Shown here: positions 2,936 through 4,310 of the stretch, piece after piece
How the letters are laid out: every line of letters begins with the position of its first letter
Numbering within the stretch: position 1 is the stretch's first letter
NCBI GenBank assembly: GCA_017400025.1
Contig: JAFQAF010000012.1
Location: 1 to 8,138, forward strand
Direction: 5' to 3'
DNA length: 8,138 bases
Source of the DNA: Oscillospiraceae bacterium
Lineage (GTDB): Bacteria; Bacillota_A; Clostridia; Oscillospirales; Ruminococcaceae
Notes under the pieces: model-generated
What the model was told of the DNA's origin: nothing
Databases searched by the model: none
What the model saw: only the letters and a program-made list of their open reading frames with translations
Program-made: the position numbers and the translations under genes

Positions 2936-3017
2936 TGTGATAATATATGCTGTAAGGGCTTCAGAATAAATCTGCTGTTATGTATTCAGTATAATAAAAC
3001 TCAAATAAAAATCCCCT

Positions 3018-3028
3018 CACATTAAAAG
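3018..3028. repeat. Target-site duplication, left copy
   Basis: CACATTAAAAG here is identical to the 11 bases at 3190-3200, and the two copies directly abut the two ends of the inverted-repeat element between them. A direct repeat exactly bounding terminal inverted repeats is the usual footprint of cut-and-paste transposition. Confidence 0.8.
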
Positions 3029-3189
3029 CAATGCCATTAAGTTAAGTGACTTTGCGAAATTATAACTTAACAAAATGAAGTAAAATGTCATTCCGAGCCC
3101 AGGCGAGGAATCTTTGCAGTAATATATCACAAAGATTCTTCGTCACTTCGTTCCTCAGAATGACATATTTTCTTATCTTAATAACATTG
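3029..3189. mobile_element. 161-bp palindromic MITE-like element
   Basis: The element starts CAATG and ends CATTG. Its ends are imperfect terminal inverted repeats: CAATGCCATTAAGTTAAG at 3029-3046 against the reverse complement of 3172-3189, CAATGTTATTAAGATAAG, with 15 of 18 bases identical. It is flanked by 11-bp direct repeats. There is no open reading frame that could encode a transposase, so it would have to be moved in trans. Inside lies a second, larger inverted repeat (3085-3166). The left side carries about 35 extra bases (3047-3081) with no counterpart on the right. This segment completes a small hairpin of its own, TTAAGTTA (3037-3044) with TAACTTAA (3063-3070). The transposase family is not known. 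Duplications of about 11 bp are within the range of some IS4-family elements, which is only a hint. Confidence 0.8.
3085..3166. repeat. Core inverted repeat (CATTC-GAG ... GAATCTTTG type)
   Basis: The left arm 3085-3116 runs from ATGTCATTCCGAG to CGAGGAATCTTTG. The right arm 3130-3166, read on the minus strand, runs from ATGTCATTCTGAG to CGAAGAATCTTTG. Each 13-base block differs by one base; the middle parts differ (6 against 11 bases). The two arms can form a long interrupted hairpin around the 13-base spacer 3117-3129. From memory, palindromes with the text GTCATTCTGAG...GAAGAATCTTTG are dispersed in many bacterial genomes. I cannot check copy number here. Confidence 0.85.
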
Positions 3190-3200
3190 CACATTAAAAG
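3190..3200. repeat. Target-site duplication, right copy
   Basis: CACATTAAAAG is the second copy of the 11-bp direct repeat bounding the MITE-like element. Its last base also belongs to the split terminator arm GAGGGGATTTT, so the target site was the loop plus the first stem base of that hairpin. Confidence 0.8.
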
Positions 3201-3215
3201 AGGGGATTTTGTCTG

Positions 3216-4310
3216 TTATTTGCTCTCCAGCGCATTTGCAACACTTATCAGATGCTGTGTTATAGGCAGTTTCTGCGGGCAGTTGTTTTCACATCTGCGG
3301 CAGGTGATACAGTCGGACGCTTTGCCGTATTTTGTCCGGATGCTGTCATACACTGGGGTGATTTTCCAGTCGTCGGCAGGGTTGCGCATATATTCATTGT
3401 ACAGCTTGAAATATTCCGGAATAGCTATATTTTTCGGGCAGTGCTTCAGACAATAGCCGCAGGCAGTGCAGTCCACAGCAGTAGCACCTTTTATGGCGGC
3501 CACAGCCTGCTGCATAATATCCATTTCTTCCTTTGTCAGTGGCTGTATGTCTTTTATGTTTTCACGCACCTGCTCAACAGAGTTCATACCGCTCAGCACA
3601 ATTTCCACATTTTCCAGGCTCTGTGCAAATCTCACTGCCAGTGCGGCAGGGGAGGCATCCGGGTCCACTTTTTTCAGTATTTCCTTTGCAGTTTCCGGCA
3701 CATCTGCCAGGCGGCCGCCTTTTACAGGCTCCATTACTATCACTTTTTTGCCGTGTTTCACACAGGTTTCATAGCAAAGGCGGCTCTGTATGGCATCGCT
3801 TTCCCAGTCCAGATAATTTATCTGCAGCAGCACATAGTCCACTTCCGGGTGCTTTGTCAGTATTTCGTCCAGCAATTCAGCAGTATCGTGATAGGAAAAA
3901 CCTGTCTTTTTTGCCAGGCCCTTTTCTTTCAGCTCCTTCAGAAAATCAAATTCGTTGTATTTTTCTGCAATGGCGTAGTTTTTCCGGTTCAGCCAGTGGA
4001 GCATATACACATCAAAATATTCCACACCGCAGCGCTGCAGCTGTGTATTGAACTGCCGCCAGCAGTCCTCATAGCTTTTTGCATCGTAACCGGCCAGCTT
4101 GCTTGCCAGCATATAGCTGTCACGGGGGTGGCGTGCAGACAGGCATCTGCCTATGGCTTCTTCACTTTTGCCACCCAAATAGGAGTAAGCGGTGTCAAAA
4201 TATCTGCCGCCCAGGGCCAGATATTCGTCTGTAATACGGTTTATTGCTTCATAATCCAGTTCTTCTTCAATTTTTGGCAGGCGGAGATAGCCAAAACCAA
4301 GCTTGTTCAT
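3216..4310 (-). CDS. Aldo/keto reductase with C-terminal two-[4Fe-4S] domain
   Basis: This 364-residue cytoplasmic protein joins an aldo/keto reductase TIM barrel (about 1-270) to a ferredoxin-like tail. The catalytic tetrad can be placed: Asp39 and Tyr44 in FDTAYSY, Lys71 in LASKL and His105 in YMLHWL. The tail has two CxxCxxCxxxCP motifs, Cys281/284/287/291 and Cys334/337/340/344, each expected to bind a [4Fe-4S] cluster. This architecture is common in anaerobic Clostridia and archaea and is usually annotated as a predicted oxidoreductase of the aldo/keto reductase family. The substrate is not known, and electrons may pass between the clusters and a nicotinamide or flavin partner (inference). 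AAGGAT (4319-4324, minus) precedes the ATG by 8 bases. It has its own promoter and is separated from glf by a terminator, so it is probably monocistronic. Its own terminator is interrupted by a mobile element. Confidence 0.95.
   Translation of the reverse strand: MNKLGFGYLRLPKIEEELDYEAINRITDEYLALGGRYFDTAYSYLGGKSEEAIGRCLSARHPRDSYMLASKLAGYDAKSYEDCWRQFNTQLQRCGVEYFDVYMLHWLNRKNYAIAEKYNEFDFLKELKEKGLAKKTGFSYHDTAELLDEILTKHPEVDYVLLQINYLDWESDAIQSRLCYETCVKHGKKVIVMEPVKGGRLADVPETAKEILKKVDPDASPAALAVRFAQSLENVEIVLSGMNSVEQVRENIKDIQPLTKEEMDIMQQAVAAIKGATAVDCTACGYCLKHCPKNIAIPEYFKLYNEYMRNPADDWKITPVYDSIRTKYGKASDCITCRRCENNCPQKLPITQHLISVANALESK

Follow-up and report, generated by a model that had tools for sequence, protein, structure and literature searches.

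A short IS4-type element within a split transcription terminator, and an apparent preference of its relatives for terminator loops

Why are the two arms of a transcription terminator in an Oscillospiraceae bacterium separated by a palindromic stretch of DNA, and was this one lucky landing or the outcome of a rule? The locus is part of a stretch of 8,138 nucleotides, in the following called the window, and a preliminary description had proposed that a mobile element has landed in the loop of the terminator. The observation at positions 3008 to 3210 was confirmed, and the interpretation is supported by sequence comparisons. On the same basis it appears that this kind of mobile DNA aims at transcription terminators, following a rule rather than profiting from chance.

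The features of the locus are summarized in Table 1. As had been described, the two arms are perfect complements of 11 bases and adjoin the stop of the putative reductase gene, the direct repeat is present in two copies, and exactly between them lies an element with imperfect inverted ends, which have three mismatches to each other. After removal of the element and one repeat the joined site folds into the predicted compact hairpin with a stem of 11 bp and a loop of nine bases. Two details were corrected, i.e., the outermost C/G of the direct repeat is common to the repeat and the arms, and the longer T-run of the split terminator is found on the strand of the reductase. The region is far more stable than dinucleotide shuffles (z of -7.9 and -8.1 on the two strands), and none of 200 shuffles was as stable on either strand. 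The names of the genes in the window, including a putative atp operon and the reductase, are based on their translations and the preliminary description. A strong hairpin with a T-tract is present directly after atpC, at positions 2901 to 2930, and thus a terminator-like site beside the split one belongs to the atp operon itself.

Table 1. Features of the split terminator and the inserted element in the window.
Feature	Position	Strand	Remark
Left arm of the split terminator hairpin, AAAATCCCCTC	3008..3018	no strand	Perfect complement of the right arm
Direct repeat, copy 1 of the 11-bp target duplication, CACATTAAAAG	3018..3028	+	Exact sequence match
Element of 161 bp, probably a non-autonomous IS4-type element (MITE)	3029..3189	no strand	Relatives have the same boundaries
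Left terminal inverted repeat, CAATGCCATTAAGTTAAG	3029..3046	+	One of 18 bases differs from the consensus, which is the IS1675 end
Internal long hairpin, outer stem ATGTCATTCCGAG / CTCAGAATGACAT	3085..3166	no strand	A-/T-rich tracts on both sides; terminator-like on both strands
Right terminal inverted repeat, plus-strand sequence CTTATCTTAATAACATTG	3172..3189	-	Two of 18 bases differ from the consensus
Direct repeat, copy 2, CACATTAAAAG	3190..3200	+	Exact sequence match
Right arm of the split terminator hairpin, GAGGGGATTTT	3200..3210	no strand	Perfect complement of the left arm
Putative aldo/keto reductase gene, owner of the entered terminator	3216..4310	-	Name taken from the preliminary description

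The nearest relatives of the reductase were found in Oscillospiraceae assemblies from roe deer rectum (protein identity 84% and 80%), and both genomes contain the element. Of 16 genomes from the same genus, 10 have matches with an E value of 1e-8 or better, and a part of these matches, including all in G012, span the inner hairpin only. The end sequence itself, with up to two mismatches, occurs in nine of the 16 genomes, either in short pairs or singly. Full-length matches mostly comprise query positions 21-24 to 181-184, corresponding to positions 3028-3031 to 3188-3191 of the window, and a few align slightly beyond. Collections of plasmids and phages yielded no match to the element with an E value up to 0.001. 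In the loci retrieved, left ends were paired with right ends by a script, which resulted in 59 distinct pairs. Pairs with at most four end mismatches in total were regarded as confident copies; these are the window element and 38 copies from eight related genomes, while 20 weaker pairs were excluded from the counts. The selection of copies is biased toward good ends, not toward any flank. All 39 copies have identical boundaries and unrelated flanking sequences, with the reservation that one flank is 73% alike in two of them (L083 and L145), which possibly share descent. Shared descent is also possible for a copy outside the 39 that has the same place in G007 and G013. The arms CCCCTC/GAGGGG do not belong to the repeat unit, and other copies are flanked by different host sequences. 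The element is short, lacks a transposase, has inverted ends, is bordered by direct repeats, and is multicopy in the relatives, as is typical for a MITE.

The terminal inverted repeats are common to the element family and to elements that encode an IS4 transposase. The consensus end CAATGTCATTAAGTTAAG is present without mismatch in 19 stretches of viral contigs. One of them, L324, has two exact consensus ends 1605 bp apart and an IS4 transposase that is split over two frames, and another, L327 (the same site as L333), encodes an IS4 transposase of 461 residues and has ends with zero and one mismatch. Both proteins, the two that were tested, exceed the cut-off of the NCBIfam model NF033592 (IS4 family), and the L327 transposase contains YHMRWGIETSFRELK, which corresponds to the YREK motif of DDE transposases of the family in the form Y(2)R(3)E(6)K. 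IS4 transposase sequence was also detected beside a consensus end by tblastn in L330, L328, L334, and L325, and the consensus is exact at both ends of L324, L338, L339, L341, and L349. Among the named elements of the plasmid collection, the Lactococcus element IS1675 is the nearest, and both of its ends are exact. Since IS1675 and other members of the IS4 family have matching ends, the element of the window is best described as a non-autonomous IS4-type MITE. According to Table 1 of a paper on the IS4 family (PMC2266710), the IS4 subgroup has ends of the form -AATR--------WTW---- and duplications of 10-13 bp; the consensus end fits, and 36 of the 39 copies have their best duplication at 10 or 11 bp, a placement based on ends and duplication lengths. 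The same table lists ends of CA------T and duplications of 8-10 bp for the IS4Sa subgroup; the ends fit here as well, and 30 of the 39 copies are at 9 or 10 bp, but nine, including the window, are at 11 bp. Kinship with IS231, for which the table gives CAT-------AA--TAA--- (PMC2266710), was rejected, since the third base of the element is A and not T.

Which genome supplies the transposase? The domain PF01609 was found in none of the 16 genomes of the genus, and these genomes, which are fragmented, also yielded no complete transposase. A search of the genus with the L327 transposase resulted in one decayed fragment, in G007 (one of 16 genomes). This IS4-like fragment (L337, G007:C15) is about 550 bp away from an end-like sequence with three mismatches. 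No transposase was recognised by eye in the ORF lists of four loci with lone ends (L183, L187, L190, and L191). In the wider family, the exact 17-base end is present in five of 297 genomes, two of which belong to the genus. The contexts of the exact ends in G080 and G283 show no IS. In the G080 locus (L181, around position 3259) the end is situated beside a sequence that resembles, by eye, the end of a group II intron maturase, which is probably a coincidence. In G138, a more distant member of the family, the C-terminus of an IS4 transposase is encoded near an exact end (G138:C18, 50% identity over 50 residues; locus L176), and in three of the four loci L176-L179 the end is close to GC-rich repeats of the CCCCCGCC/GGCGGGGG type. 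PF01609 is present in 28 of 119 family genomes; 30 of these loci were opened, and none has an end within two mismatches, while five have one at three or four. A search of the viral contigs with the L327 protein retrieved only two copies of the same element, both already known.

The internal hairpin was analyzed in an alignment of 33 copies with lengths of 155-182 bp, to which it is common (consensus AAAATGTCATTCTGAG...CTCAGAATGACATATTTT). At least six T are present in the ten bases after the hairpin in 29 of the 33 copies on one strand and in 28 on the other, compared to 12.0% of all windows of that length in these elements. Six further elements with the same ends, three with a transposase (L327, L339, and L330) and three without one in the available DNA (L322, L326, and L316), each fold, close inside the end, into a hairpin that is followed by a T-rich tail. 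The sequences thus suggest that the element may replace the terminator that is broken on entry, and termination may be restored. It is quite conceivable, and compatible with the main explanation, that two events are nested here and that an IS4-type MITE took up an unrelated palindromic repeat with the motif TGTCATTCTGAG. The inner motif occurs in relatives also where the outer ends are unmatched, but it has about the same place in the 33 aligned copies, and is therefore now part of the unit. A second repeat that contains this motif was noticed in loci with inner-motif matches (L094, L097, L118, L126, and L132; 235-309 bp aligned, 87-96% identity between G001, G012, and G013). The contig of L001 likewise stops at the inner motif.

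A duplication of about one helical turn, a feature of the IS4 family, was found across the 39 copies. When lengths of 9-12 bp were compared, the best was 10 bp in 27, 11 bp in nine, and 9 bp in three copies. A recognisable repeat, with at least seven matching bases, is present in 30 of the 39 copies, and its length is 10 bp in 24 and 11 bp in six, the window included. The duplication is exact in six copies, and in nine the best repeat has fewer than seven matching bases. At least eight of the ten bases adjacent to the ends are repeated in 19 of the 39 copies, versus 0.13% of 1482 mispaired flanks.

For the analysis of the targets the element and one repeat were removed, and stems centred within two bases of the centre of the duplication were scored; as a control the right flanks were dealt to other copies in 1000 reshuffles. 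A stem score of at least 16 at the duplication centre was obtained for 21 of the 39 copies, while the control had a mean of 8.5% and a maximum of 23%. The mean score was 16.55, versus 9.21 (sd 0.50) for mispaired flanks. Without the window and the copies with poor duplications the fraction was 17 of 29 versus 7.7%, and with a stricter count, for which the best stem anywhere must score 18 and be central, it was 18 of 39 versus 4.8%. The other 18 copies are below the threshold; judged by eye, several resemble terminators that have decayed, and several lack a clear duplication, and therefore they neither help nor refute the rule. When the targets are aligned, an A-tract is visible about 13 bases before the centre and a T-tract about 13 bases after it, and between them are a GC-rich stem, in which no base is fixed, and an AT-rich centre. 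In the 29 targets with good duplications (window excluded), A has a frequency of 86-90% at positions -14/-13 and T of 86% at +12. The combination of A-tract, GC-rich stem, and T-tract indicates that an intrinsic terminator was entered through its loop. The preliminary description had suspected that the transposase recognises the symmetrical flanks CCCCT...AGGGG, and had proposed to examine whether other copies are also found in hairpin loops or between CCCC and GGGG. The symmetry recurs, as do the hairpin loops in the 21 copies, but the CCCC/GGGG sequence does not.

No part of the targets is more conserved than the tracts, and target-arm specificity has been reported for some elements of the IS4 subgroup in the paper cited above (PMC2266710). 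The transposase might read only A-/T-tract arms at a fixed spacing, i.e., bent DNA, which terminators happen to carry. This is less likely for several reasons. Mispaired flanks retain the tracts and lose the stem, and tracts are missing, by the criterion applied, in nine of the 30 targets with good duplications. Furthermore, a core stem of at least 12 is present in 13 of the 21 targets that have both tracts, versus 11.9% of 3015 background sites with both tracts in 245 kb of genus DNA; within the limits of this small background, the stem thus matters beyond the tracts. Among all 30 targets with good duplications, 17 have such a stem.

Another explanation would be that insertion is untargeted or merely intergenic, and that the copies in terminators are those that survive selection. 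Terminators between genes are permissive, and 18 of the 39 copies missed the stem threshold. Nevertheless, this is improbable, because copies that are only tolerated should be spread over intergenic DNA, whereas the positions of the cuts follow the hairpin, the A-tract, the T-tract, and the stem centre having fixed positions relative to the duplication.

Are there genomes in which the site is still empty? The genus was searched for nine joined sites, three of which gave matches that span the junction in other genomes. The site of L117 (G005) is matched in G009 (81%, with the entire span covered), G003 and G008 (both 68%), and G004 (63%), that of L128 (G010) in G005 (78%), G009 (74%), G008 (70%), and G003 (69%), and that of L085 (G002) in G011 (71%). 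Eight of the nine spanning sequences were folded, and every one forms a hairpin without the element; that of L269 (G008) has no T-run directly after it. The ninth, L274 (G004), aligned poorly and was left out. The joined sites of L117 and L085 fit the loop rule, with scores of 20.0 and 22.5 and centre offsets of 0.0 and -0.5; joined L128 has an exact repeat, yet no stem is centred on it. Two further sites were excluded from the count, L082 with matches that are partial or in the same genome, and L121 with matches that cover the right side only or are interrupted. The four remaining sites had no junction-spanning match in the genus. At the window site itself no syntenic empty counterpart was found: the atpC loci of seven relatives gave no match to the reductase, and their DNA after atpC is unlike that of the window. 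In G002, the gene for the reductase with 80% protein identity ends in a closed hairpin, CTCCCCTG...CAGGGGAG-TTTTTT, similar in sequence to that of the window; the G007 gene ends in a closed hairpin of unlike sequence, and the G001 gene in a hairpin without a clear T-run. The proposed ancestral empty state is thus backed by orthologous empty sites at three other loci and not by a syntenic one at the window, and neither of the two outcomes that the preliminary description had listed as refuting was encountered. That the whole structure of 203 bp is one ancestral composite RNA hairpin, with a repeat that arose by chance or later, has a negligible probability, as the region does fold as one long structure but copies elsewhere have the same two boundaries within different flanks, and the element is absent from orthologous sites at other loci.

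The targets of autonomous relatives were also inspected. L327, in a contig of the viral collection, is inserted in a terminator-like hairpin with a 9-bp duplication over the loop, and L350, on a Subdoligranulum plasmid, in a terminator-like hairpin with a duplication of 7/10 over the loop and four mismatches in each end. A choice of terminators by autonomous elements is seen at these two sites only. At seven Lactococcus sites, not all of which are independent (L341 and L345 share a flank), the duplication is always the palindrome GRGTATACYC, and three further loci show again a site that was already included. The L349 insertion (Lactobacillus) has no clear hairpin, L324 is inserted inside a larger stem and not in a simple terminator, no duplication was seen for L340, and L290/L314 are tandem copies. 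From the sequences, insertion centred on a dyad seems to be the rule that fits most of these sites. In the IS4-type tandem copies of L338 and L290/L314 (G128) the neighbours are exactly 10 bp apart, and L344 contains two adjacent IS1675 genes.

Taken together, we consider it very likely, with a probability of roughly 0.87, that the element is an IS4-type MITE that was directed by an IS4 transposase into the terminator loop via a dyad target, with a duplication of 11 bp. A transposase of the IS4 family would have inserted the MITE into the loop of the intrinsic terminator of the reductase gene. It would recognise a dyad target with the layout of a terminator, i.e., A-tract, GC-rich stem, loop, and T-tract, and would introduce staggered cuts about five bases on either side of the dyad centre. 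The inserted element would bring its own terminator-like hairpin, by which termination may be preserved, and the transposase may read either the sequence layout or an extruded cruciform. More tentative is a joint reading that goes further: the IS4-type lineage might home to terminators by structure, the dyad being seen perhaps as an extruded cruciform or as a frame of bent A-/T-tracts and cut symmetrically around the loop, and the bidirectional terminator of the element might replace the host stop and make the insertion transcriptionally silent. What defines intrinsic terminators, of which there are many, is their shape and tracts and not their sequence, and an insertion there leaves every gene intact. 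For a transposon able to locate them, this would be a simple way of spreading without harm to the host, and would provide a safe-harbour rule that is independent of sequence. If this is true, the selection of DNA by dyad structure becomes testable for a DDE transposase, and terminators in such genomes would be remodelled by transposition.

How does this compare with known systems? Group IIC introns are not known to duplicate their target. Like the element described here, they are mobile and recognise the stem-loop of Rho-independent terminators, but they are introns that insert beside the stem-loop and have no inverted ends, according to the sections of PMC7923331 that deal with them. That the element is such an intron was rejected, as it has inverted ends and a duplication, and an Rfam search of the window yielded no hit at the gathering score. 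An IS or MITE that targets terminator loops was not found described in the open-access literature searched, including passages of PMC2266710, PMC1525189, PMC7923331, PMC4596501, PMC10969869, and PMC3049150; in the main text of the IS4 family paper the word terminator is absent (PMC2266710). Several small repeats are associated with gene ends or terminators. Of 19 BrickBuilt MITEs of Porphyromonas gingivalis, 10 are reported to lie between or next to predicted Rho-independent terminators and/or polyadenylation sites, but the natural terminator is intact in the case described, and loop insertion is not part of that account (PMC4596501). SPRITE, BOX, and RUP of the pneumococcus are enriched near gene ends, and SPRITE resembles a terminator itself, while insertion into terminator loops does not feature in the description consulted (PMC3049150). 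Insertion sequences with symmetrical targets are also known. Target-arm specificity has been reported for some IS4 members and ISRm22 (PMC2266710, De Palmenaer et al. 2008). ISRm22 belongs to the IS4 family and has palindromic intergenic targets at all copies, and ISPsy8 is inserted on the symmetry axis of a hairpin, as described in the relevant part of PMC1525189 (Tobes and Pareja 2006). The difference is that REP-targeting insertion sequences use one repeated sequence (PMC1525189), whereas the target stems of the element are unrelated terminators without a fixed sequence. A close counterpart is IS1675: both of its 18-base ends equal the consensus ends of the element family with zero mismatches, and it makes a 10-bp duplication of a dyad-centred target. 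However, IS1675 is a full IS with its own transposase, and it uses a fixed palindrome instead of terminators of any sequence.
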